From the NCBI RefSeq assembly GCF_033242265.1, contig NZ_BTFW01000001.1:3307001-3371000 (forward strand): a stretch of 64,000 nt of DNA, in the 5' to 3' direction. How positions within the stretch are numbered: position 1 is the stretch's first letter; every line of letters starts with the position of its first letter. The position numbers and the translations under genes were made by a program. The stretch comes from Novosphingobium sp. IK01 (GTDB lineage: Bacteria; Pseudomonadota; Alphaproteobacteria; Sphingomonadales; Sphingomonadaceae). This document shows positions 3,167 to 14,244 of this stretch, one piece after another. The notes below the pieces were generated by a model that was given only the letters and a program-made list of their open reading frames with translations, ran no database searches and had not been told where the DNA came from.

Positions 3167-4279
3167 TCAGGAAATCAGCCGGGGCACCGCCATGCCGCGC
3201 ACGTCGAAATGCGCGTCGGGGTGTTCGGCCCCGCCATCGCGCGGGGCGGCGCGGTGCTGGACGACGCCGTTCTTGCCGAAGCCTTCGACGACGGGGCGGG
3301 CGCCCTTGCTCGACAGCCACAGGCGCAGGAGGTGGCGGCGGCGCTGCGGCTCGGGCCAGTCCCAAAAGGTCGTGCGGGCGTGGAGCGCGGCATAGTTCGA
3401 CAGCCACTGGATGTCGCCGGGGCGGAAATCCATCTCGATGGCCATGCCCGGCTCGTAGGTGATCTCGTCGAAGAGGCGCAGCACCTCGATCTGGTCGTCG
3501 GTGAGTTTGGGCACGCCCTCGTAGTCCTGGGCAGTCAGGATATAGAGCGAGCCCGCGTACATGCTGAACACGCCCTGTTCGAGGCTGACGATGGGCGAGG
3601 TGTAGGTATCGGCGGGGGCCTCGTGATCCTGCCGGCGCCAGTCCCAGTGGAACGGCTCGAACAGCAGGGGGGCGAGGTCGGGGCGGCGGCGCAGGATCTC
3701 GTTGTAGATTTCCGCGCCCGAAACGAGGCACGAGGCCCCGCCTTCGCGCGCGCCGCGCAGGCACATCAGCGCCACGATGTCCGAACTGTCCGAATGGTAG
3801 ACCAGCTTGTCGCGCACTTTCGAGGACAGCGCGGTGGGATCGTCCATCGTCTTGTCGGAGGTGGCATAGATATGGTCGATCAGGTCGCCCATCTCGTTCT
3901 GGCGGATGGGATCGCCCATGTGCAGGCCCAGAATGTAGTAGATCGCGCTCGACAGCGCGTCGGAATAGAGATCGGCGCGCAGCCCGCGCACGAGCACGAA
4001 GCCGCGTCCGAATTCGACTTCCTGCCGCCATTCCTCGCAGGCCGTGGCGGTTTCGACGAGGGGATAATCCTCGGCTCGGACCGTGCGCAGGTCGGGGTTT
4101 TCGGCCATGAAGCGGGTGCCCAGCGCTTCGAGTTCGGCGATCTGGGCGTCTGACAGCGGATAGATCCAGTCCTGCCCCTTGCTCAGCTGGTCGCCGCGCC
4201 ATGCGGCCCGGCTGGTGATTGGCGCCAGAACGGGCGCCAGATCGGGGGAGGGGGGAGTGATCACGGACAAGGCTGGCAT
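3167..4279 (-). CDS. TauD/TfdA family Fe(II)/2-oxoglutarate-dependent dioxygenase
   Basis: 370 residues from ATG 4279. The family couples oxidative decarboxylation of 2-oxoglutarate to hydroxylation of a substrate, often with C-N, C-S or C-O cleavage. The metal-binding facial triad is visible: HSD in KLVYHSDSSD (about residues 178-187) gives the HxD pair. A distal His lies in YAALHARTTFWDW, and the later Arg of RRHLLRLWLS probably binds 2-oxoglutarate. An in-frame frame extends upstream to 4414, but the 4279 start is preceded by AAAGG, immediately adjacent and therefore tight. It runs in the same direction as the formamidase gene behind it, 160 nt apart with a terminator between. The substrate is unknown; the setting suggests an N-containing compound. 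Confidence 0.85.
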   Translation of the reverse strand: MPALSVITPPSPDLAPVLAPITSRAAWRGDQLSKGQDWIYPLSDAQIAELEALGTRFMAENPDLRTVRAEDYPLVETATACEEWRQEVEFGRGFVLVRGLRADLYSDALSSAIYYILGLHMGDPIRQNEMGDLIDHIYATSDKTMDDPTALSSKVRDKLVYHSDSSDIVALMCLRGAREGGASCLVSGAEIYNEILRRRPDLAPLLFEPFHWDWRRQDHEAPADTYTSPIVSLEQGVFSMYAGSLYILTAQDYEGVPKLTDDQIEVLRLFDEITYEPGMAIEMDFRPGDIQWLSNYAALHARTTFWDWPEPQRRRHLLRLWLSSKGARPVVEGFGKNGVVQHRAAPRDGGAEHPDAHFDVRGMAVPRLIS

Positions 4280-4377
4280 CCTTTCTGGCAGATGGTTTGG
4301 CCGATGGTTTGCCATGCTGCGCGCGGGCGGTCTTGTCGCGTGGCGCAAAAAGGTTTGGGGGCTCGGGTGATCCGAAC

Positions 4378-4412
4378 AAAAAAGGGCGCCCGGCGGCTGG
4401 TACCCGGCGCCC
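4378..4412 (-). terminator. Rho-independent terminator after the formamidase gene
   Basis: On the minus strand GGGCGCC (4412-4406) and GGCGCCC (4390-4384) form a stem that is followed directly by six Ts (4383-4378). It lies about 27 nt past the stop of the minus-strand acetamidase/formamidase gene. Confidence 0.72.
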
Positions 4413-4438
4413 ACTTTCCTGTTGCGACCCTTTTGGGC

Positions 4439-5530
4439 TTATCCGGGGTCCTTGACCACGCCACGGGCCGGGAACATGTCGCGGTTGACGCGGACATGGA
4501 CGCCCAGCGTGCCGTCGACCACCTGGGTCACGCCAAAGTCGCTGGCGACGCTCATCAGCGAATAGGCATCGTTCTTCGAAAGGCCGACCTGTTCGTCGAG
4601 CAGCCTGAGCATGTCCATCGAGGCCGATTTCATCGCCTGGTCGAGGGTGTCGCCAAAGCCGTGGACGATCCAGTGTTTTGGCGTTTCGAGCAGCGGCGAG
4701 GGGAATTCGAAATCCTTGCGCAGGATGATCTGGAACAGGCAGTTGAGCGAGCTTTCGATGGCCGTTCCCGAAATCTCGCCGTCGCCCTGGCTGACATGGG
4801 GATCGCCGATCGAGAACAGCCCGCCCTTGACCTGACACTTGTAGTACATCGTCGCGCCCGCGCCGATGCGCCAGTTGTCGATGTTGCCGCCGTGGAGGCC
4901 GGGGGGAATCGTGCTGACCGGCTCGTTCACCGCCGGGGCCACGCCCGCCGTGCCCAGATGCGGGCGGGCCGGGATGGTCACGCCGGGCAGTGCGGGCTGG
5001 CGGTCGCAGACCGGGCAATTGGTGATCGTGCCGGGAACGAGGTACTTGCCGGGAAAATCGTAGGCATAGAGCGCGCTGGCGGTCTGGGTCTGCGCGTCGA
5101 GCCGGTAGATCGTCACGCGCTCCTTCTCGTCGAATTCCTGATAGAGATGGCCCCAGTTGGCCGCCAGATTTGAACCATAGGGGTTGCGCGGCTCCATCGA
5201 GAGGTAGCGCACTTCGAGCATGTCGCCCGGTTCGGCCCCTTCGACATAGATCGGCCCGGTCATGATGTGGACGCCCGGCGCGCGGGTGGTCGGGTCGATT
5301 TCCGTAAAGATGCGCTCGACGCCTTCGTCGAACATCAGGTCGGGGGCATCGCCGGCATGGTGGGTGATCGCTTCGGCATGGACCAGATCACCGCTTTTGA
5401 TCGTGAGGGCGGGCTTGATCGAGGGCGAGAAATAGCCCCAGTGCACGGTCTCGGGCGTGGCTTTGAGAGTGTGCAGCGCGCCGGGCGCCGTTTCTGCCCG
5501 CTGCCGACCGTGATTGCAGACCAAGCTCAT
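4439..5530 (-). CDS. Acetamidase/formamidase family protein (free-standing)
   Basis: 363 residues, somewhat shorter than the ~400 of well-studied formamidases. The family hydrolyses short-chain amides such as formamide or acetamide to ammonia and the acid. Family blocks are clear: ETVHWGYF near residue 29, GGNIDNWRIGAGA near 210, GDPHVSQGDGEISGTAIE near 238, and a C-terminal LMSVASDFGVTQVVDG. It has two cysteines in NCPVCDRQ near residue 165, unlike the fused paralogue. ATG 5530 has a GAGG Shine-Dalgarno 8 nt upstream. The gene is divergent from the VOC gene across a 242-bp gap that contains a large inverted repeat. A second copy of this domain is fused to an AraC regulator at 7721-10063, which is unusual within 5 kb. 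Confidence 0.9.
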   Translation of the reverse strand: MSLVCNHGRQRAETAPGALHTLKATPETVHWGYFSPSIKPALTIKSGDLVHAEAITHHAGDAPDLMFDEGVERIFTEIDPTTRAPGVHIMTGPIYVEGAEPGDMLEVRYLSMEPRNPYGSNLAANWGHLYQEFDEKERVTIYRLDAQTQTASALYAYDFPGKYLVPGTITNCPVCDRQPALPGVTIPARPHLGTAGVAPAVNEPVSTIPPGLHGGNIDNWRIGAGATMYYKCQVKGGLFSIGDPHVSQGDGEISGTAIESSLNCLFQIILRKDFEFPSPLLETPKHWIVHGFGDTLDQAMKSASMDMLRLLDEQVGLSKNDAYSLMSVASDFGVTQVVDGTLGVHVRVNRDMFPARGVVKDPG

Positions 5531-5594
5531 GCATGTGCCTCATTGAATAGGGGACTAAACCGCGATCCTTGTCGGAGAGGGGGGCGCCCGGGTC

Positions 5595-5680
5595 TTGTTT
5601 GCGTGCGCCCTATGACTTGGCCTGCGGGAAGCACCGGGCGCGCCAGCCCCAGGCCAAGTCATGGCGCGCGCGTCAACAAA
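5595..5680. repeat. Long imperfect inverted repeat in a divergent intergenic region
   Basis: ATGACTTGGCCTG at 5612-5624 is perfectly complemented by CAGGCCAAGTCAT at 5650-5662, with a 25-nt loop. Imperfect complementarity extends outward to about 5595 and 5680 (TTGTTTGCGTGCGCC against GGCGCGCGCGTCAACAAA). It sits between the divergent formamidase and VOC genes and could be an operator, a structured leader or a mobile repeat remnant. Confidence 0.6.
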
Positions 5681-5772
5681 CGGGGCGCGCTGGCCCAAGC
5701 CGGACGCGCGGGCGCGCGCCAGAAGGCGGCCATCCTTTGCTTGTCCGCATTTCACGAAAGGGGATCGCACCC

Positions 5773-6258
5773 ATGCCCAACACGCTCATCTTCGTCGACC
5801 TGCCCAGCGATGATCCCGCCGCCGCCGCGCGGTTCTATGCCGAAGTGTTCGGCTGGCAGAACGACGAAAAGCCCGCAGGCGTCTATCACCGCATGGTTCC
5901 GGGCGGCCAGTTCCCCAACCCGGATGGCACCGACAGCCAGATCGGCAACCTCCATCTGGGCATCTTCGATGCGGCCAATGCCCGCCCCCATCCCGACAGC
6001 GCCGGGGTCGAACCCCGCGCCCTGTCCACCACGGGCCGCAAGCCGCGCATCTGGATCCTGATCAGCGACGACGACAGCGCCGAACGCATTCTGGCCGCCG
6101 CCACGCAGCGCGGGGCAAAGGAACTGTGGCGCAACCACTACTGGTCGACCTTCAACGGCTACAACCACGCCTTCGAAGACCCGTGGGGCAACGAGATCGT
6201 GCTCTGGGGCAAGGCCGGGCCGGAGCCGAAAGTTCCGGCAGACTTCACCCGCGAGTAA
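5773..6258 (+). CDS. VOC family protein (glyoxalase/bleomycin-resistance fold)
   Basis: 161 residues, the usual size for a single-chain VOC protein with two beta-alpha-beta-beta-beta modules. It opens with TLIFVDLPSDDPAAAARFYAEVFGW, a pattern typical of this fold, and ends with HAFEDPWGNEIVLWGK, which carries the usual metal-ligand Glu near the C terminus. VOC members are metal-dependent isomerases, lyases or extradiol dioxygenases, and some are simply binding proteins. ATG 5773 has GAAAGGGG about 9 nt upstream; longer in-frame readings through the inverted repeat lack such a site. It stands alone, followed by a hairpin, but lies between amide-hydrolase and oxygenase genes, so a role in the same catabolic route is plausible. 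Confidence 0.82.
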   Translation: MPNTLIFVDLPSDDPAAAARFYAEVFGWQNDEKPAGVYHRMVPGGQFPNPDGTDSQIGNLHLGIFDAANARPHPDSAGVEPRALSTTGRKPRIWILISDDDSAERILAAATQRGAKELWRNHYWSTFNGYNHAFEDPWGNEIVLWGKAGPEPKVPADFTRE

Positions 6259-6289
6259 GCGGGCGCAAGCCTGCACTCAAGAATTCGGG

Positions 6290-6322
6290 GTGCCCCGCTC
6301 AAGACCCGAGCGGGCGGGGCAC
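6290..6322 (+). terminator. Hairpin after the VOC gene
   Basis: GTGCCCCGC (6290-6298) pairs perfectly with GCGGGGCAC (6314-6322). It lies 31 nt past the VOC stop and before the Rieske oxygenase start. There is no T tract, so it may be a weak terminator. Confidence 0.5.
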
Positions 6323-6380
6323 TCTAGAAAGCCTGCGATCCTGCCTTATGCTGTGCCCCTTGCCATCAGGAGTTGAGCCC

Positions 6381-7592
6381 GTGCCTCTCGTTACCGACAG
6401 CTTCATTCGCTCGCTCGCAAGTTCGGCGGTGGATCTGGCCGATGCCCAGACCCTGCCGCCCGAATGCTATACCAGCGCGGAATTCTATGAATTCGAGAAG
6501 GAGGCGCTCTACAATCACGAATGGCTCTGCGTGGGCCGGGCCGACTGGGTGGCCAATCCGGGCGACTATTTCACCACCACGCTGGTGGGCGAGCCGGTGG
6601 TCGTGGCGCGCACGCTCGAAGGCGAGATCCGCGCGATGTCCTCGGTGTGCCAGCACCGCGCGATGCTGGTGGCCGAGGGGCATGGCAATGCGCGCGGCTT
6701 CCTGTGCCCCTACCACCACTGGAGCTATACCCTTGAGGGCAAGCTCGTCGCCGCGCCCGCGATGGGCAAGACCTGCAATTTCGACAAGGCCCGGTATGGC
6801 CTGCCCAATTTCAGGGTGGAGCTGTGGAACGGTTTCATCTTCATCAATTTCGATGCCGATGCCGCCCCGCTGGCCCCGCGCCTGACCCGGGTGGAACAGG
6901 CCATCGCCGGCTACGACCTTGCCCGTGCCGAAGGCCCGCGCCCCGACCCCGCGCCGAGCCTGCCGTGGAACTGGAAGGTCATGTTCGAGAACAACAACGA
7001 CGGCTATCATGCCAGCCGCCTGCACCACGGGCCGCTGCACGATTTCGTGCCTTCCGGGCTGGCCGAGTTTCCCGACAGCGACCCGGCCGATGGCGGCTTC
7101 TTGCGCTTCAACGGCACGCTCCATGCCGACGCCAGCTTCAACGCCACGCAAAAGGCCGTGCTACCGGTGTTTCCGGGCCTGAGAGATGAAGGGCGGATGC
7201 GGATGACTTTCGCCAATATCCCGCCCACGCTCAGCCTCGTGATGATGAGCGACATGGTGATCTACCTGATCCTGCGCCCGACCGGGCCTGAAACGCTGGA
7301 GATGGACACCGGTTTCCTGTTCGCGCCGGGCGCGATGGCCGACCCGGCCTTCGACCACAAGCTCGACATGAACATCCGCGCCTCGGGCCATATCATCGCG
7401 CAGGATCTCCATGTCGACGGCCTCGTCCAGCAGGGCCTGCGCTCGCGCTTTGCCCCGCGTGGCCGCTATTCGTGGCAGGAGGGCGCGCAAGGCCAGTTCA
7501 ACAAGTGGCTGGTCCATCGCTATGCCGCCGCCCATGCCCGGCTTTCTGCTGCGGCGCTTACGGAGGGGGCCGATCGGGTGACGGCGGCCTGA
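6381..7592 (+). CDS. Rieske non-heme iron oxygenase, alpha subunit
   Basis: 403 residues from GTG 6381, the normal size for a ring-hydroxylating-type oxygenase alpha subunit. These enzymes use electrons from a partner reductase to hydroxylate, dihydroxylate or N/O-demethylate a substrate. The Rieske [2Fe-2S] ligands are seen as CQH (about residue 89) and CPYHH about 18 residues later. The mononuclear iron site is in ENNNDGYHASRLHHG, with two His, and a C-terminal Asp/Glu region QDLHVDGLVQQGLRS. GTG is chosen because AGGAG lies 8 nt upstream; an earlier in-frame ATG at 6348 has no such site. No ferredoxin or reductase gene is nearby, so the electron donor must lie elsewhere. Confidence 0.9.
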   Translation: MPLVTDSFIRSLASSAVDLADAQTLPPECYTSAEFYEFEKEALYNHEWLCVGRADWVANPGDYFTTTLVGEPVVVARTLEGEIRAMSSVCQHRAMLVAEGHGNARGFLCPYHHWSYTLEGKLVAAPAMGKTCNFDKARYGLPNFRVELWNGFIFINFDADAAPLAPRLTRVEQAIAGYDLARAEGPRPDPAPSLPWNWKVMFENNNDGYHASRLHHGPLHDFVPSGLAEFPDSDPADGGFLRFNGTLHADASFNATQKAVLPVFPGLRDEGRMRMTFANIPPTLSLVMMSDMVIYLILRPTGPETLEMDTGFLFAPGAMADPAFDHKLDMNIRASGHIIAQDLHVDGLVQQGLRSRFAPRGRYSWQEGAQGQFNKWLVHRYAAAHARLSAAALTEGADRVTAA

Positions 7593-7607
7593 TCTGCCCT
7601 CATCCCG

Positions 7608-7642
7608 GGCCGGGCGCTGCGCAGGATTGCGCGGCCCGGCCA
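7608..7642 (+). terminator. GC-rich hairpin after the Rieske oxygenase gene
   Basis: GGCCGGGCGCTGCGCA and TGCGCGGCCCGGCC are complementary except for a small bulge, with a GGAT loop. It lies 16 nt after the stop, with no T tract. It probably separates this gene from the fusion gene downstream. Confidence 0.45.
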
Positions 7643-7720
7643 ATGGCGTAAGCTCGGGGGCAAGGCCGGTATCGAACAGTCGGCCAGTTCAGGGCCGATC
7701 ACATCGAGGGGCAGCATTCC

Positions 7721-10063
7721 TTGCGTTTCACCACCAATGCCTACCCGCGCGAGCAGCGTCAGGATGCCTGGCGCTTTGCCTTGCGCCGCGTTTCCCTTGA
7801 AGTTCAGGCGACCAGCGAAGACCTCTATGGCGAGCTGGTGAGCTTCACCAGCGGGCAGGGCATCCAGTTTGTCCGCGTGACGGGCAATGGCCAGTCCCTG
7901 GCCATCGACATGGCGCAGGAAGCGCCCAGTTTCTGGCTGGTGCTCCTGCTCGAAGGCCGGTTGAGCGCCCGGCAGGGCACCACCACCATTGACCTTGCCG
8001 AAGGCGACATCCTCTATGGCGGGGGTGCCTCGCGCACGCAGGTCGATCTGGCGGGTGAGCACCGGTTCCTGCTGGTCAAGGTGCCCCATGCGCTGCCCGC
8101 CTTGCGCTCGCGCTCGGCCTTGCCTTCGCAGATCAGCAACCTGATCGCCGACGAGGCCATCGGGCGCATGCTCTCCGCGCTGTTGCGCTCGGTCGCCGAT
8201 ACCATCGTTGACGTGTCCGACGACCAGATCCGCCCGGTCGAACTGGCCCTGCCCGAATTCATCGCGGCTACCCTGCTCGACAAGGCCCCGGTCAAGGAAC
8301 TGGGGGGCGCGGCGGGCGCGCGCGCGGCGATCCTCGAACGCGTGTTCCAGTCGATCGAGATGCGCCTGTCCGATCCCAACCTGTCGATCCACCAGATCGC
8401 CGCCGAACACCGCATCTCGCCGCGCTACCTGCAAAAACTGTTCGAGAGCGCGGGTGAGAGCTTCAGCCAGTTCGTGAAGTTCCGCCGCCTCGAACGCTGC
8501 CGCCTCGATCTGGGCAGCCCGCTCCATGCCCAGCGCTCGATTTCCGAAATCCTCTATCAATGGGGCTTCAACGACAGCGCCAGCTTCAGCCGCGCCTTTC
8601 GCGAACGCTACGCGATGAGCCCGCGCGAATATCGCAAGGTCGGCGCCTTGCCCGAGGACATGGGCGAGGCGCCCCGGCGCGGGCGCCCGAGCGCCCAGAA
8701 GGAAGGCCGCCCCGAAGAACGCGAGGACAGCGCCGCCCCCTCCACCCGCGAAGGGCTCGGCGATGTTGAGGGGCTGGTCGACGGGCTGGTCGAGGACGTG
8801 CAGGTCGATGCCGCGCGCGGCGTGCGCCACCATGCCCTGCCGGTCCGTCCCGACACGATCCACTGGGGCTATTTCAGCAAGACCCTCAAGCCCGCGCTCG
8901 AAGTCTGCTCGGGCGACTATGTGACCGTCGAGACGCTCACCCACCACGCCAACGACGACGCCGAACGCATGATCGACGGCGATCCGGCCGCCGAGGCGAT
9001 CTATCGCTGGACAGCAGAAGGCAAAGTGATCGACCGGCGCGGGGCGGGGCCGCTCGATGCTTCGGTGGTCGGGCGCGGGCCGGGCGAGGGCTTTGGCGTC
9101 CACATCTGCACCGGGCCCATCGCCATTTCGGGGGCCGAGCCGGGCGATGTCGTGCAAGTGCGCATCCTCGACATCGACCCGCGCCCCAGCCGCAACCCGC
9201 GCTTTGCCGGGCGCGCCTTTGGCAGCAACGTGGCGGCCTATTGGGGCTTCCACTATGCCGAACTGCTCACCGAACCCAAGCCGCGCGAGGTGATCACGAT
9301 CTACGAGATCGAGAAGGGCGCCGGGCTGCCGGTCGCCCATGCGGTCTACAACTATCGCTGGACGCCCCAGACCGACCCTTCGGGGGTGATCCACCCGATG
9401 TACGATTATCCGGGCGTTCCGGTCGATCCCGAGACGACCGAGAAGAACTTCAACGTCCTGCGCGACATCGAGATTCCCGTGCGGCCCCATTTCGGGGTGG
9501 TGGCGCTGGCGCCCGCCCATTCCGATCTGGTCGATTCGGTTCCCCCCGCCAATTTCGGCGGCAATATCGACAACTGGCGGCTGGGGCCGGGGGCCAGTGT
9601 GTTCCTGCCCGTGGCGGTGCCCGGCGGCCTCCTGTCGCTGGGCGATCCCCATGCCAGCCAGGGCGATGGCGAGCTGTGCGGCACGGCCATCGAATGCTCG
9701 ATGACGGCGGTGATCCAGGTGATCCTGCACAAGGCCAAGGCCGCCGCGCCCCATGTGCGCGAGCTGGACTATCCGATGATCGAGACGCCCACCGAATACG
9801 TGATTCTGGGCTTTTCCAACCCGGACTATTTGCGCGAGCTGGGCGGCAAGGCGCAGAGTGAGGTCTACAAGCGCTCGTCCATCGACGCGGCCATGCGTGA
9901 CGCTTTCCGCAAGGCCCGCCGCTTCCTGATGACCATCCGCGACCTGAGCGAGGACGAGGCGATCTCGCTGCTCTCGGTGGGGGTCGATTTCGGGATCAGC
10001 CAGGTCGCCAATGGCAACTGGGGCGTCCATGCGGTGATCAGCAAGGCCCTGTTTACCAACTGA
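7721..10063 (+). CDS. AraC-family regulator fused to an acetamidase/formamidase domain
   Basis: 780 residues in one unbroken frame. Residues 1-200 resemble the cupin-like ligand domain of AraC_binding_2 regulators. Residues about 201-307 are a complete AraC two-HTH domain (LSIHQIAAEHRISPRYLQKL and SISEILYQWGFNDSASFSRA, ending MSPREYRK). Residues 308-363 are a charged linker rich in Arg, Glu and Pro with a GLVDGLVED repeat. Residues 364-780 are a full-length acetamidase/formamidase domain with DTIHWGYFSK, FGGNIDNWRLGPGAS and GDPHASQGDGELCGTAIE. The start is TTG 7721, with GAGGGG 9 nt upstream; no earlier start is apparent. A GTG at 8798 (residue 360) could allow separate translation of the amidase, but its ribosome site is poor. 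The architecture suggests a regulator that also hydrolyses its ligand or a related amide; that is inference. Confidence 0.88.
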   Translation: MRFTTNAYPREQRQDAWRFALRRVSLEVQATSEDLYGELVSFTSGQGIQFVRVTGNGQSLAIDMAQEAPSFWLVLLLEGRLSARQGTTTIDLAEGDILYGGGASRTQVDLAGEHRFLLVKVPHALPALRSRSALPSQISNLIADEAIGRMLSALLRSVADTIVDVSDDQIRPVELALPEFIAATLLDKAPVKELGGAAGARAAILERVFQSIEMRLSDPNLSIHQIAAEHRISPRYLQKLFESAGESFSQFVKFRRLERCRLDLGSPLHAQRSISEILYQWGFNDSASFSRAFRERYAMSPREYRKVGALPEDMGEAPRRGRPSAQKEGRPEEREDSAAPSTREGLGDVEGLVDGLVEDVQVDAARGVRHHALPVRPDTIHWGYFSKTLKPALEVCSGDYVTVETLTHHANDDAERMIDGDPAAEAIYRWTAEGKVIDRRGAGPLDASVVGRGPGEGFGVHICTGPIAISGAEPGDVVQVRILDIDPRPSRNPRFAGRAFGSNVAAYWGFHYAELLTEPKPREVITIYEIEKGAGLPVAHAVYNYRWTPQTDPSGVIHPMYDYPGVPVDPETTEKNFNVLRDIEIPVRPHFGVVALAPAHSDLVDSVPPANFGGNIDNWRLGPGASVFLPVAVPGGLLSLGDPHASQGDGELCGTAIECSMTAVIQVILHKAKAAAPHVRELDYPMIETPTEYVILGFSNPDYLRELGGKAQSEVYKRSSIDAAMRDAFRKARRFLMTIRDLSEDEAISLLSVGVDFGISQVANGNWGVHAVISKALFTN

Positions 10064-10064
10064 T

Positions 10065-10103
10065 TTGCGGAAGGCCCCGGCTCAAGGTCGGGGCCTTCCG
10101 CAA
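10065..10103. terminator. Perfect 15-bp hairpin between convergent genes
   Basis: TTGCGGAAGGCCCCG (10065-10079) pairs perfectly with its complement at 10089-10103 across a 9-nt loop. It lies between the convergent AraC-amidase and SDR genes and can serve both. There is no long T tract. Confidence 0.65.
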
Positions 10104-10115
10104 GGGGTGGCGGCT

Positions 10116-10961
10116 TTATGATCCGGCCACTTCCGGCTCGGCGGCAATCGAGAGGGTCAGGTCCTTCCACTGCGCGATCTGGGCTTCGAGCCCGGCAAAT
10201 TCATGCTCGGCATAGTGCAGCGCGTCTTCGCCCAGCAGCAGCAGCAGGGGCGGCTCGGGCGCGTCGAGCGCGGTCAGGATCGCTTGCGCGGCGCGTTCGG
10301 GGGAGCCGGGCTCGTGGCCGTGCTTGTCCTGCAAGACGGCCCGCGCGACATGGGCGGTCTGGGCATAGTCGGCAATCACCGGTTCCGCGCCGGGCAGGCG
10401 CGTGGCGGCAAAGGCCGTGCGCATGCCGCCGGGCGCCACGTTGGTCACCCTGATCCCCAGCGGCGCCACTTCCTGTGCCAAAGTCCGCCCGAGGCATTCG
10501 AGCGCGAACTTGGTCGCCCCGTAAAGCCCGGTGCCGTGCCAGGCCGCCAGCCCCGAAACCGAGGTCACGTTGACGATATGCCCGGCGCGGCGCGCGCGCA
10601 TGGCGGGCAGCACGGCCTTGATCACCGCCATCGGCCCCAGCACGTTGACCGCAAAAAGCGCGCGCGCGTCCTCAAGGCTGGTTTCCTCGATCGCCCCGGT
10701 AAATCCGCGCCCGGCATTGTTGACGACATAGTCGAGAGGCCCGACCAGACCTTGCGCGGTGCGCACGACCACCTGCACGGCGGCCTCGTCGGTCACGTCG
10801 AGCTTCATCGCATGGGCGCGGCCCGGCGCGAGCGCGGCAAAGGCCTGCGCATCGGCCTGCGCACGCACGGTGCCCACGACAGTATCGCCGCGCGCCAGTG
10901 CCGCGCGGGCCAGAGCCAGCCCGAGGCCCGAGCTCGTACCGGTGATGAACCAGTTTGCCAT
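10116..10961 (-). CDS. Short-chain dehydrogenase/reductase (SDR)
   Basis: 281 residues from ATG 10961, a typical classical SDR length. It would reduce or oxidise a carbonyl/alcohol using NAD(P). The Rossmann motif TGTSSGLG is at residues 6-13, the NNAG block is in VVNNAGRG, the catalytic Ser lies in VTSVSG, and the active-site YGATK follows. The start is set by AAAGGA about 8 nt upstream of ATG. Longer in-frame readings to 11093 are not supported by a ribosome site. It is divergent from the RutA-like monooxygenase gene over a 236-bp gap holding an inverted repeat. The substrate is unknown; a role in the same catabolic block is inferred from position only. Confidence 0.88.
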   Translation of the reverse strand: MANWFITGTSSGLGLALARAALARGDTVVGTVRAQADAQAFAALAPGRAHAMKLDVTDEAAVQVVVRTAQGLVGPLDYVVNNAGRGFTGAIEETSLEDARALFAVNVLGPMAVIKAVLPAMRARRAGHIVNVTSVSGLAAWHGTGLYGATKFALECLGRTLAQEVAPLGIRVTNVAPGGMRTAFAATRLPGAEPVIADYAQTAHVARAVLQDKHGHEPGSPERAAQAILTALDAPEPPLLLLLGEDALHYAEHEFAGLEAQIAQWKDLTLSIAAEPEVAGS

Positions 10962-11044
10962 GCAGGATTTCCTTTGTTTCGTGCCTCTGTTTCTTGGGCG
11001 TGTCGGCGGGCTGTAGGGCAGCGGGCAAGAGGCTGTCTTGGCGG

Positions 11045-11085
11045 GGCGCGCATGGAATTGTCGCAAGCTGCGCTTCATGCGCGCG
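11045..11085. promoter_or_regulatory. Inverted repeat in the SDR / RutA-like divergent region
   Basis: GGCGCGCATG (11045-11054) is perfectly complemented by CATGCGCGCC (11076-11085), with 21 nt between. Its position between divergent genes makes it a candidate operator, possibly for the AraC-amidase or the Lrp regulator. No binding evidence exists. Confidence 0.35.
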
Positions 11086-11197
11086 CCGTTCAACGCTTCG
11101 GGCGCGGACAGACAAGAAGGGAGCCTTCGCGCATCCTAGCTTGCCTGCGATCCCGCCCGTCGCCACATATCCTTTCCACGCTTATCATGGACCCGTC

Positions 11198-12328
11198 ATG
11201 ACCGATACGATCCCCCAGGTTGCCCCGTTCGACCTTCCGTCCGACACCGGCGGGCGCGACATCGGCATTTTCATGCCCATGGCCAATGGCGGCTGGATCA
11301 TCTCGAAGAATTCGCCCCGGCTCGACGGTTCGTACGACTACAACCTCAAGGTCGCGCAGATGGCCGATGCCATGGGCCTCGACTTCATCATGGCGATGGC
11401 CAAGTTCAAGGGCTTTGGCGGCGAAATCGAGCATTGGGAATCTTCGCTCGACAGCCCGATGATGATGGCGGGCCTTGCCCAGGCGACCAGCCGCGTGCGG
11501 GTCTGGGCGACGATCCACACCCTGCTGCAAAACCCGGCGGTGGCTGCCAAGATGATCGCCACGCTCGACCAGATCAGCCATGGCCGCGCCGGGCTCAATG
11601 TGGTGACGGGCTCCTACAAGGACGAGTTCGCCCAGATGGGGGCCTGGCCCGAAGGCGTCGACCACGACGAGCGCTATGTTCTGGCGACCGAATGGATCGA
11701 GGACATCAAGCGCCTGTGGAGCGAGGAGCGCGTGACCGCGAAGGGCAAGTATTTCACGCTGGAGGACTGCACCTCGCGGCCCAAGCCCGAAAAGCGCCCG
11801 TTCCTCGTCTGTGCGGGCACCTCGAAGGCGGGCATCCGCTTCACCGCCGATCACATGGATGCGCTGTTTCTGGCGGGCAACGGCCTCGACGAACTGGTCG
11901 CCAATACCCACAAGGCCAAGGCCGATGCCCTCGCGCTGGGCCATGCCATCCGCACCTATTCGATGATGATCCTGGTCATCGGCGAGACCGACGCAGAGGC
12001 CGAGGCGATGGTGCAATCCTATCGCAAGGGCCTCGACGAGGGAACCTTGCGCGGCATGTTGCGCGCCTATGGGATGCTCGATGCCGAGATCGGCAAGGAG
12101 AACGATTTCACCCGCAAGGCGCGCTCGGCGCTGATGGCCCCGCATGTGGCCGGTTCGCCCGAAACCGTGCTGGCGCGCCTGACGGAGATTTTCGAGAAGA
12201 CCGCGCTCGACGGGCTCATGGTGATTTTCCCCGATTACCTCGCGATGCTGCCGGTCTTTGCACAAAAGATCCTGCCGGTGCTGCGCGCGCGCTTTCCCGG
12301 CAAAGTGAAGGTCGCGGCTGATGTCTGA
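11198..12328 (+). CDS. RutA-like LLM-class flavin-dependent monooxygenase
   Basis: 376 residues from ATG 11198. It belongs to the bacterial luciferase-like monooxygenases and looks most like RutA, the FMN-dependent pyrimidine oxygenase that opens uracil at an amide C-N bond. Shared features are DIGIFMPMANGGWIISKNSP near the start, a GFGGEIEHW block, and a LNVVTGSYKDEFAQMG segment. The overall length is close to RutA (~360-380). It needs reduced FMN from a flavin reductase. The next gene, overlapping by 8 nt, resembles RutB, so the two probably act in sequence. No other rut genes (rutC-G) are nearby, so the substrate may not be uracil. The upstream ribosome site is weak. Confidence 0.82.
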   Translation: MTDTIPQVAPFDLPSDTGGRDIGIFMPMANGGWIISKNSPRLDGSYDYNLKVAQMADAMGLDFIMAMAKFKGFGGEIEHWESSLDSPMMMAGLAQATSRVRVWATIHTLLQNPAVAAKMIATLDQISHGRAGLNVVTGSYKDEFAQMGAWPEGVDHDERYVLATEWIEDIKRLWSEERVTAKGKYFTLEDCTSRPKPEKRPFLVCAGTSKAGIRFTADHMDALFLAGNGLDELVANTHKAKADALALGHAIRTYSMMILVIGETDAEAEAMVQSYRKGLDEGTLRGMLRAYGMLDAEIGKENDFTRKARSALMAPHVAGSPETVLARLTEIFEKTALDGLMVIFPDYLAMLPVFAQKILPVLRARFPGKVKVAADV

Positions 12329-12986
12329 CCAGACGCTGCCCCATGTCGGGGCCCCCGGCGCGATGATCGCGCCCGCGCGCACGGCGCTGGTGGTGGTCGA
12401 CATTCAGGTCGATTTCGCCGCGCCCGAGGGTGTCGTCGGCCAGTGCGGGGTCGACATGGGCGTGGCCGAACGCGTGATCGACCGGATCGAGCCGCTGATC
12501 GCGGCGGCACGCCGGGCCGGGGTGACGGTCGCGTTCCTGCGCGTGATGACCCGGCCCGAGAGCGACAGCCACGCGCTGCGCACGCTGATGGAGCGGCGCG
12601 GCACCCCCGGCGCCGAGGCGATCTGCCGGATCGGCAGCGGGGGCGAGGCCTATTACCGGGTCGCTCCGCAGCCCGGCGACATCGAGGTGGGCAAGCTTGC
12701 CTATTCGGGCTTTTCGGGCACGGACTTCGACCAGCAGTTGCGCGCGCGCGGGATCGACACGCTGGTGATGACCGGGCTGACCACCGATTGCTGCGTGGAT
12801 TCGACCACGCGCGACGCTTTCCATCACGACTATCACACGTTCGTCGTGTCCGACGCCTGCGGCGCCTTCGACGAAGGGCTGCACCTTTATGCGCTCAAGG
12901 CCATGGCCGAGCATTGCTCGCTCCTCGTCGAGAGCGAGGCCGTGCTGGCCGCATGGGGGGCGCTGCCTGTCGAGGTGGCGGCTTGA
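12321..12986 (+). CDS. RutB-like isochorismatase-family cysteine hydrolase
   Basis: 221 residues. Members of this alpha/beta fold hydrolyse amides or ureides by a Cys-Lys-Asp triad. The triad positions are visible: Asp in VVVDIQVDFAAPEG, Lys in VGKLAYSGFSGTDFD, and Cys in TGLTTDCCVDSTTRDA. The YSGFSGT run and the pairing with a RutA-like gene point to RutB, the ureidoacrylate amidohydrolase, as the nearest well-known relative. ATG 12321 overlaps the monooxygenase stop by 8 nt, implying translational coupling. The product may therefore hydrolyse the ring-opened product of the preceding enzyme. Nicotinamidase-type or biuret hydrolase activity is an alternative. Confidence 0.83.
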   Translation: MSDQTLPHVGAPGAMIAPARTALVVVDIQVDFAAPEGVVGQCGVDMGVAERVIDRIEPLIAAARRAGVTVAFLRVMTRPESDSHALRTLMERRGTPGAEAICRIGSGGEAYYRVAPQPGDIEVGKLAYSGFSGTDFDQQLRARGIDTLVMTGLTTDCCVDSTTRDAFHHDYHTFVVSDACGAFDEGLHLYALKAMAEHCSLLVESEAVLAAWGALPVEVAA

Positions 12987-13029
12987 CCCTGTTTCTTCCC
13001 CGATCCTTCCGGCAAAAGGCCTCCAGTCG

Positions 13030-14244
13030 ATGCGTATCGTGATCTTGGGCGCTTTTTCCGCGCTTTATTTCCTGCTCATGGCGTCCACGTTCAATTCGCT
13101 GGGGCAGGTCCTGCCGATGATCGTGGCCGACCTCCACCTGACCTGGGCGCAGGCGGGAATGGGCTTTACCGTGCTGGGGATTGCCTGCGGGGCGGCCAGT
13201 CTGGTGCCGGCGGCGGTGATTCGGCGGTTCGGGGTGGCGGTGACGCTGCTGGCGGGCATGGTCCAGCTGATTGCGGGCTTCATCGCGCTCGCGTGGATGC
13301 AGGGCGTGGGCATGTACCTGCTGGGCACGCTGCTGCTGGGCCTTGGGTTCTGTTTCTGCGGGACGATCCCGGCGGTCGATGCCATCGGCAATGCCTTCGA
13401 GGGGCGCCGGTCGAGCGCGATCGGCTTCTATTTCACCGCGGGCAATATCGGCGCGGTGACCGGCCCGCTCACGTTCTATGCGATCCATGCAAGCACGGGG
13501 GACTGGCGGCTCTATTGGCTGGCCTGCGCCGCCGGGGCGCTGGTGCTCGGGCTGTTCGCGGCGGTGGTCTGCGGGCGCTATGAACGCATGGCCGGCGCGA
13601 TCCACGGGGCCGCCGGTCAGGAAGGCCAGACGGCGAGTGAGGGCTGGAGCGCGCGTGCGGCGCTGGGCACATGGCAGTTCTGGATCGTCGTGGCGGCCTA
13701 TACGGCCTGCCTGCTGATCAACACGACCGTCCATTCGTTCGCCTACCAGCACATGCTCGAACATGCGATTTCGCCCGAAAAGGCCACCGGCTTCATCTCG
13801 GCGGCGGCTTTCGTGGCGGCGGTGGCGGCGGCGCTGGCGGGGGTGGCCGGGCAGAAGGTCGATGCGCGGCGCCTGACGGTGCTGGCGCTGATGGGCTCGG
13901 CCTTTTCCTCGCTGGCGCTGGTGCTGCCGCTCTCGGACATGGCGCTCGGCTTCTTCGCGCTCACGTTCGGGATTGGCATCGGGGTGTCCACGGTGGGGAC
14001 GGCGCTCCTGCTGCGCAACTGGTTCGGCGGGCGCGCGGGGCTTGAACTCTATTCGGTGATGACCGTGGTTTCGACCTCGGCGGCGCTGGGGCCGAGCATC
14101 GGGGGCCATCTGCATGACACCATCGGCAGCTTCGTGCCCAATTTCCTCGGTCAGGCGGGGATCGGCATCCTCGTCGCGCTGGTCGTGGGGCTGGCCCGCG
14201 CCCCGGTGGCGCGCGGGGCGCAAGGGGATGCGCTGGCGGCCTGA
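13030..14244 (+). CDS. MFS transporter
   Basis: 404 residues with about 12 hydrophobic segments, the normal major facilitator size. It follows the RutB-like gene by 43 nt on the same strand, so uptake of the compound attacked by the RutA/RutB-like pair is a reasonable guess. The first segment opens at ILGAFSALYFLLMAS and the conserved loop 2-3 region carries RRFGVAVTLLAG. ATG 13030 is preferred, with AAAGG about 12 nt upstream; the frame upstream to 12889 overlaps the previous gene and reads as arginine-rich shadow sequence. The direction of transport and the substrate cannot be told from sequence. Confidence 0.85.
   Translation: MRIVILGAFSALYFLLMASTFNSLGQVLPMIVADLHLTWAQAGMGFTVLGIACGAASLVPAAVIRRFGVAVTLLAGMVQLIAGFIALAWMQGVGMYLLGTLLLGLGFCFCGTIPAVDAIGNAFEGRRSSAIGFYFTAGNIGAVTGPLTFYAIHASTGDWRLYWLACAAGALVLGLFAAVVCGRYERMAGAIHGAAGQEGQTASEGWSARAALGTWQFWIVVAAYTACLLINTTVHSFAYQHMLEHAISPEKATGFISAAAFVAAVAAALAGVAGQKVDARRLTVLALMGSAFSSLALVLPLSDMALGFFALTFGIGIGVSTVGTALLLRNWFGGRAGLELYSVMTVVSTSAALGPSIGGHLHDTIGSFVPNFLGQAGIGILVALVVGLARAPVARGAQGDALAA

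Follow-up and report, generated by a model that had tools for sequence, protein, structure and literature searches.

Trigger enzymes such as PutA, BirA and NadR combine an enzyme with control of transcription in one protein, and the same is proposed here for the product of a gene in a 64,000-nucleotide stretch of the Novosphingobium sp. IK01 genome (contig NZ_BTFW01000001.1, positions 3,307,001 to 3,371,000; the whole stretch is referred to as the window). This gene encodes an AraC-type regulator fused to an acetamidase/formamidase domain. The enzyme half resembles 3b9t, a Methylobacillus flagellatus acetamidase/formamidase with a twin-arginine translocation (Tat) signal, which is 59% identical over the amidase domain but stands alone; its entry title reads predicted acetamidase/formamidase only. 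The regulator half has its best NCBIfam match among FeaR/AraC_binding_2-type regulators, from which the fusion differs by its enzyme domain and by a score below the cut-off. The fusion is real and conserved, and on the evidence of its sequence and of a predicted operator it is probable that a pathway activator and an active amidase are united here in one bifunctional regulator-enzyme. The parts of the gene are as follows (window positions).

7721-10063, plus strand: AraC-amidase fusion gene, 780 amino acids, TTG start to TGA (open frame, Pfam, full-length homologues)
7706-7711, plus strand: putative Shine-Dalgarno sequence GAGGGG, nine bases 5' of the TTG (from sequence)
7721-8641, plus strand: AraC-type half, residues 1-307, with N-terminal sensor domain and two helix-turn-helices (Pfam, model, fold match)
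8642-8809, plus strand: disordered, fast-evolving linker, residues 308-363 (model confidence, length variation)
8678-8689, plus strand: RGRP (RGxP), conserved linker element, residues 320-323 (alignment of fused loci)
8810-10060, plus strand: acetamidase/formamidase domain of the 3b9t type, residues 364-780 (Pfam, phmmer, Foldseek, near-invariant polar residues)

The initial annotation had described a single frame joining AraC and formamidase-type halves without a break, and the 780 codons are indeed uninterrupted and both halves intact. The start residue is matched in the close relatives P0004, P0009 and P0030, all of which begin with MRFTTNAYP. Two of the three Pfam families named at that stage scored above their cut-offs: HTH_18 at residues 226-306 (65.9 bits, cut-off 33.6), with the two helix-turn-helices of the AraC/XylS type, and FmdA_AmdA (PF03069) in two stretches (100.3 bits, cut-off 27). 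The third, AraC_binding_2, stayed below threshold in the window copy (19.9 versus 27 bits). Thus, for the AraC region that had been called complete, the helix-turn-helix part stands, and the sensor part rests on the model and on relatives; PF14525 is present in many of the best 120 of 3109 database relatives. FeaR was the top NCBIfam match of the regulator half with 125.9 bits, short of the equivalog cut-off of 199, and the enzyme half reached 66.5 bits for FormamaseFmdA (cut-off 500). By these scores both families are clear, the specific names (FmdA formamidase, FeaR) are not.

The AlphaFold2 model obtained from a 66-row alignment had a mean pLDDT (per-residue confidence) of 83.0 and a predicted template modelling (TM) score of 0.55, and comprised two mostly confident domains. 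The linker (residues 314-366) had pLDDT values below 50, and the mutual placement of the two domains is not fixed by the model. Values below 50 were also obtained for residues 442-450, 454-456, 510-513, 516-519 and 651-653 of the amidase domain, the last stretch lying at the motif. The first Foldseek match of the regulator half was CuxR (5nla; TM score 0.55 on the target, root-mean-square deviation 14.8). An antisense open frame of 836 amino acids (window 7520-10030, minus strand) spans nearly the whole fusion gene and is probably a by-product of the high G+C codon bias.

A full-length fusion without internal stops was found in 20 of 397 genomes of the window family, which its named relatives place as Sphingomonadaceae, its own genome included, the other 19 copies being 53-77% identical; at class level the fusion was present in four of 385 genomes, again including its own. 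The named genomes analysed were the best 80 of 561 confirmed loci, a list that, like the best-120 list of proteins, favours close relatives, and all 80 hold one frame of at least 700 amino acids. The view that this is not a pseudogene junction is confirmed by these full-length frames; the survey of relatives showed the joined form to be kept, and the frameshift considered as an alternative was not borne out. Named carriers comprise Novosphingobium, Sphingomonas, Sphingobium, Asticcacaulis, Caulobacter, Hyphomonas and Parvibaculum, as well as Aliiglaciecola, Paraglaciecola, Nevskia, Burkholderia, Caballeronia and Paraburkholderia, which, going by the organism names, we take to span three proteobacterial classes. 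The closest named species among these 80 loci was N. capsulatum (one metagenome-derived record at 99%, NBRC 12533 at 92-93%). All of the best 120 of 3109 protein matches have both domains in their precomputed Pfam lists, and one database source name reads 'transcriptional regulator, AraC family with acetamidase/formamidase activity'. Gene calls were of uneven quality in some compared loci: L045 and L069-L071 were called by longest open reading frame, L047 was poorly called, and the fusion starts of L065 and L035 were called too late. Six loci (L023, L024, L026, L058-L060; wrong strand or read past the stop) were left out of one sequence comparison.

Among solved structures, phmmer placed 3b9t nearest to the enzyme half (residues 368-778, E = 4e-174), and it was also the first Foldseek match (E = 7e-55, TM score 0.92 on the target, 59% identity). 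Eleven polar residues picked from the invariant columns of the 66-row alignment (H409, D412, H461, D476, H590, N615, D617, D642, H644, D649 and E651) do not vary across the 80 named loci; E658 is shared by 79. The GGNxD and GDxHAxxGDxE stretches are common, with small differences, to 3b9t, 5ubu, 2f4l, 3tkk and 2ii1. We infer that the conserved polar residues are catalytic; a literature search in which larger result sets were covered in part gave no paper on the amidase active site. The possibility of a pseudoenzyme is weakened by the conserved residues. When 108 stand-alone relatives were compared with 142 fused rows, 143 of the 196 columns fixed in the former stayed fixed in the latter. The fused set was 142 of 143 rows, P0030 being dropped for frame changes inside its amidase half. 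The stand-alone set consisted of 104 of the best 120 rows plus four locus rows; sequences outside 405-505 amino acids, those carrying an AraC motif and four that group within the fused clade were excluded.

Each of the 20 family genomes and G716 holds one 3b9t-type amidase, namely the fused copy, and one FmdA2, a second and stand-alone amidase that lies approximately 27 kb from the fusion in G057. In G217 there is a third, weaker FmdA-family stretch (2945015-2945581), and a lone exact match to the operator described below (G217:C1:2939811) lies approximately 5 kb from it. A stand-alone 3b9t-type amidase is located directly upstream of the fusion in G753 and G435 and a few kb from it in G778 and G784. 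The loci L065:8588-12291 and L066:8213-11844 present the same architecture in a different setting, with the fusion just downstream of a stand-alone 3b9t-type amidase and, further upstream, a solute-binding protein and an ABC transporter (Pfam matches on the L065 genes; the L066 neighbours fall into the same clusters).

The linker measures 55-88 residues in the 134 parsed of 143 fused rows. It contains RGxP in all 80 named loci (RGRP 54, RGLP 11, RGSP 5, RGKP 5, RGWP 5), and RGRP in 109 of the 134 parsed rows. Among stand-alone AraC relatives (rows P0251-P0362; the eight best were excluded, being mostly pieces of fusions), RGxP was found in 2 of 101 parsed of 112, one of the two being a partial entry whose tail resembles that of the fusions. 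AT-hooks have RGRP as their core, and this tetrapeptide is present in the window copy as in 54 of the 80 named loci. Its second arginine is replaced by L, S, K or W in 26 of the 80 and is replaced in 25 of the 134 parsed rows, which weakens an AT-hook as the general role of the element; because this arginine is not kept, no AT-hook is claimed. An arginine-rich DNA-binding motif of a bacterial protein is described for WhiB3 (PMC10245118).

Two in-frame GTG codons lie at 8798 and 8822 (V368), and a separate C-terminal product starting from GTG 8798 had initially been considered. This idea was not supported: none of the 19 parsed relatives (of 23 loci; four were unparsed, the window among them) has a start codon at that offset. 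In the same 19 relatives the codon of V368, the nearest conserved valine, is GTG in 12, GTT in two and GTA in one, and is replaced by Ile in two, Gln in one and Ala in one; no conserved Shine-Dalgarno sequence was seen ahead of it. An internal translation start for a free amidase was rejected since neither start codon nor ribosome site is conserved.

The presumed regulatory link of the fusion to the adjacent genes gained support from a newly found predicted operator, which recurs in the catabolic gene cluster of the window.

3167-4264, minus strand: TauD/TfdA-type dioxygenase (homology clustering)
4439-5530, minus strand: FmdA2, stand-alone second amidase (46% identical to the fused domain)
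5594-5619, plus strand: predicted operator, exact, 63 bp upstream of the FmdA2 start
5674-5699, minus strand: predicted operator, exact, 74 bp upstream of the glyoxalase-Rieske-fusion genes
5773-6258, plus strand: small glyoxalase-fold protein, 161 amino acids (gene cluster 8; Pfam match on the homologue L036:1799-2284)
6381-7592, plus strand: Rieske oxygenase alpha subunit (Pfam; nearest solved structure carnitine monooxygenase)
10116-10961, minus strand: short-chain dehydrogenase (SDR; homology)
11037-11062, plus strand: predicted operator, partial (CTTG-N7-GCGC only), 75 bp upstream of the SDR start
11091-11116, minus strand: predicted operator, exact, 82 bp upstream of the RutA-like gene
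11198-12328, plus strand: RutA-like flavin monooxygenase (below RutA cut-off)
12321-12986, plus strand: RutB/biuret-hydrolase-like amidohydrolase (below RutB cut-off)
13030-14244, plus strand: MFS transporter (Pfam, homology)

Across 16 loci, 105 regions upstream of cluster genes were scanned, and 42 of them contained the dyad CTTG-N7-GCGC; in one shuffled set no dyad reached more than 12. These discovery loci were picked for holding the cluster and did not include L037, L047, L050 and L051. When the sites were aligned, the motif lengthened to CTTG-N7-GCGC-MC-N6-TTG, a direct repeat with a step of 22 bp, and such a layout suits AraC-type regulators. A cluster gene lies on the expected side of 42 of 47 half sites, 25 of these being 50-79 nt before the start codon, and in one-sided regions 26 of 31 half sites agree in direction. 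Seen from the served gene, the site reads CAA-N6-GKGCGC-N7-CAAG, an order that suggests an activator site next to a promoter. In the own genome (3.77 Mb) there are four exact full sites versus one match of the reversed-pattern control; three belong to the fusion cluster and one lies at 1.484 Mb between LigB and MFS genes. An exact site was present in 15 of the 20 family loci, all of which were scanned, and 23 fused genomes together have 33 exact sites, of which 27, spread over 16 genomes, are at most 15 kb from the fusion. Eighteen other, non-fused genomes gave 11 matches and two control matches, and six of the 11 fell in three genomes that have the cluster and a stand-alone AraC relative (G639 4, G764 1, G733 1; three of the four G639 matches are one sequence at contig ends). 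Nine of the 16 discovery loci, window included, are without a stand-alone AraC gene of gene cluster 10 in the 20 kb read, and eight of these nine have at least one exact full site. Besides the fusion, no second AraC-type gene was found among the window cluster genes (3167-14244), and the fusion is therefore taken as the predicted binder in the window.

The fourth exact site of the genome marks a distant piece of the same pathway. At G000:C1:1481003-1485562 (L077:11004-15562), 1.8 Mb from the window, genes for TauD, amidohydrolase, LigB and MFS proteins share the operator, and these are cluster members missing from the window. The exact site, accompanied by a one-mismatch neighbour, lies between the LigB gene (73% to a cluster member), which has the amidohydrolase and TauD genes beside it, and the MFS gene (61%); the MFS start was set where relatives start, the longest open reading frame running over the operator site. 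In N. capsulatum NBRC 12533 (L164), both gene sets are contiguous in one stretch, with two exact sites beside FmdA2/glyoxalase, one beside SDR/RutA-like, and, between LigB and MFS, two imperfect sites with one and two mismatches, respectively. The contiguity in L164 of the gene sets that share the operator in the own genome independently supports a single regulon marked by the motif.

Several results weigh against assigning the operator to the fusion or an assured function to its enzyme half. With one mismatch allowed, the own genome gave 22 matches versus 11 for the reversed control, so only exact matches are telling, and even these numbered 29 versus nine control matches in the 22 other fused genomes. 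An exact site near the fusion is absent in three of 19 core genomes (G057, G193, G234) and in the distant alphaproteobacterial fusions of G133, G217, G753 and G435; eight named 20-kb loci split into four with exact sites and four without (three Burkholderiales, one alteromonad). In seven of the 16 discovery loci a stand-alone cluster-10 AraC relative is present as well, and exact sites occur in clusters with a stand-alone AraC regulator (L069 1, L072 1, L075 2; L075 is a short contig, and the AraC relative of that genome is on another contig). The operator thus appears to mark a regulator lineage rather than the fusion. On the simplest reading, this AraC lineage would bind the operator with or without an amidase, and in the window the fusion would do so. 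Furthermore, 53 of the 196 columns fixed in stand-alone amidases vary in fused ones; many of the changes are conservative, and some, such as those at 507, 584, 600, 611 and 764, could alter specificity. Because the scores are far under the FmdA and FeaR cut-offs, substrate and inducer are not assignable from sequence.

In the mechanism that we favour, the N-terminal half would act as an AraC/XylS-type activator that binds direct-repeat operators approximately 60-80 bp upstream of the cluster genes, the promoter-proximal half-site lying about where a -35 element would be. In the presence of a pathway compound, the regulator would switch on the nitrogen-compound catabolic cluster. The fusion gene follows the glyoxalase and Rieske genes behind one of the predicted operators, so activation would raise regulator and enzyme together. 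The C-terminal half, predicted to be a catalytically intact 3b9t-type amidase, would work in the cytoplasm, hydrolysing a pathway amide. We infer operator binding, activation, autoregulation, catalysis and a substrate within the pathway from the sequence patterns described above. The enzyme half might remove the inducer or make it. A further step, plausible but less likely than not, would be the self-limiting switch suggested in the initial annotation, here a self-extinguishing one-protein switch: the amidase half would break down the amide that induces the regulator half to which it is joined, or the direct precursor of that amide. Regulator produced from the self-activated operon would then amplify the response and time its end, and RGxP in the free linker might carry an inter-domain signal or add a minor-groove DNA contact. 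If this held, one regulator would sense and destroy its own signal.

The main rival is a plain co-expression fusion, in which both halves work and the join keeps them genetically together without mechanistic coupling; it shares both activities with the favoured bifunctional regulator-enzyme, so the odds of the two overlap. The long, disordered and variable linker, the sensor region retained by the regulator half and the stand-alone AraC relative that adjoins FmdA2 in some loci (G781, G778, L042 and others), by which such regulator and amidase genes can be adjacent, speak for it, and we regard it as quite possible, if short of probable. Against it, the join persists across three proteobacterial classes (going by the organism names) with RGxP in the linker of 80 of 80 named loci, and few separations of the halves are seen. 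No locus turned up with the clear precursor, a separate AraC gene beside a separate 3b9t-type amidase gene, for which no systematic search was made. A role of the amidase domain as sensor or oligomerisation module without useful catalysis could have arisen where a second, stand-alone 3b9t-type amidase near the fusion (G753, G435, G778, G784) frees the fused copy. The motif residues, invariant in 80 of 80 fused loci (E658 in 79), and the 21 genomes in which the fused copy is the sole 3b9t-type amidase make this distinctly unlikely.

The operator might also belong to another regulator, with the fusion controlling something else, as its occurrence in clusters without the fusion and the stand-alone cluster-10 AraC genes in seven of 16 discovery loci would allow. 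This we consider unlikely: the direct repeat with its 22-bp step suits the AraC type, the fusion is the only AraC-type gene among the window cluster genes, and the sites track the cluster even where it is split in two. Formation of two separate proteins, by linker cleavage or from an internal start, is very improbable; a disordered, charged linker and in-frame GTG codons (8798, 8822) would permit it, but start codons and Shine-Dalgarno sequence are not conserved and the frame is unbroken in 20 family and 80 named loci. A sequencing, assembly or frameshift artefact is refuted by the relatives, the same architecture being present in independent isolate genomes, and its probability is negligible. 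The bifunctional regulator-enzyme remains our preferred, probable reading.

The cluster around the fusion is conserved across the compared genomes, and extra members in other genomes include a LigB extradiol dioxygenase, an amidohydrolase, a PfkB kinase, further TauD proteins, SBF and TonB proteins. An alteromonad (L161) has much of the same gene set around its fusion; in the Burkholderiales L159, L160 and L166 only amidase genes were recognised beside it. By its gene content, the cluster appears to degrade a nitrogen-containing compound that is probably aromatic or heterocyclic. Naming of the pathway was not possible from the Rieske (nearest carnitine monooxygenase), LigB (nearest YgiD and DOPA dioxygenases), RutA-like and RutB-like proteins, which do not fix the substrate, and the glyoxalase-fold protein gave weak PDB matches only. 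A 465-amino-acid protein (L041:8499-9896, gene cluster 11) occurs in nine compared loci and matched no Pfam or NCBIfam model at the thresholds applied.

The 28 fused sequences in a tree of 63 amidase domains grouped in a single clade (support 100/98), which also took in four stand-alone rows. Three of these are P0222, labelled 'partial' in the database, P0125, which begins in linker-like sequence, and P0129, which is without a signal motif; P0125 and P0129 may be fragments. The fourth, P0146 (421 amino acids), likewise has no signal motif and may be a true unfused descendant, perhaps a secondary separation of the fusion. The tree of 43 regulator halves placed three stand-alone rows among the fused; two fused rows were long-branched, one of which (P0132) was placed among stand-alones. 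This topology does not exclude a single origin. Most of the close stand-alone amidases appear to be exported: by a loose pattern, a twin-arginine motif was found in 83 of 84 listed stand-alone relatives of 465-500 amino acids and in none of 16 rows of at most 440 amino acids. This suggests that the regulator took the place either of an exported amidase's signal sequence or of the beginning of a short cytoplasmic enzyme.

A fusion that is widespread in proteobacteria thus has both an operator and a regulon predicted for it, and the operator would link scattered genes of a nitrogen-compound pathway. With its presence in a culture-collection strain, N. capsulatum NBRC 12533, it is directly testable whether a regulator can sense its own signal and destroy it. 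In the literature search, made by title and abstract opening with larger result sets covered in part, no paper on an AraC-amidase fusion was found; to that extent the initial statement that no such characterised protein was known holds, with the qualification that the domain pair is already visible in database names. Transcription factors carrying a metabolic enzyme are few to our knowledge, and we know of none of the AraC type with an amide hydrolase and of no trigger enzyme joining AraC and amidase. Compared with 3b9t, the fusion should be cytoplasmic, the regulator standing where most close stand-alone relatives have the Tat motif. Among the known systems closest to the fusion is Ada, in which an AraC-type helix-turn-helix and O6-methylguanine-DNA methyltransferase share one polypeptide, as DNA-binding region and enzyme do here, and whose helix-turn-helix shows weak similarity to that of the fusion (19 bits). 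Ada differs in its enzyme, in having no AraC-type N-terminal sensor domain and in serving DNA repair, whereas the fusion stands in a catabolic setting.

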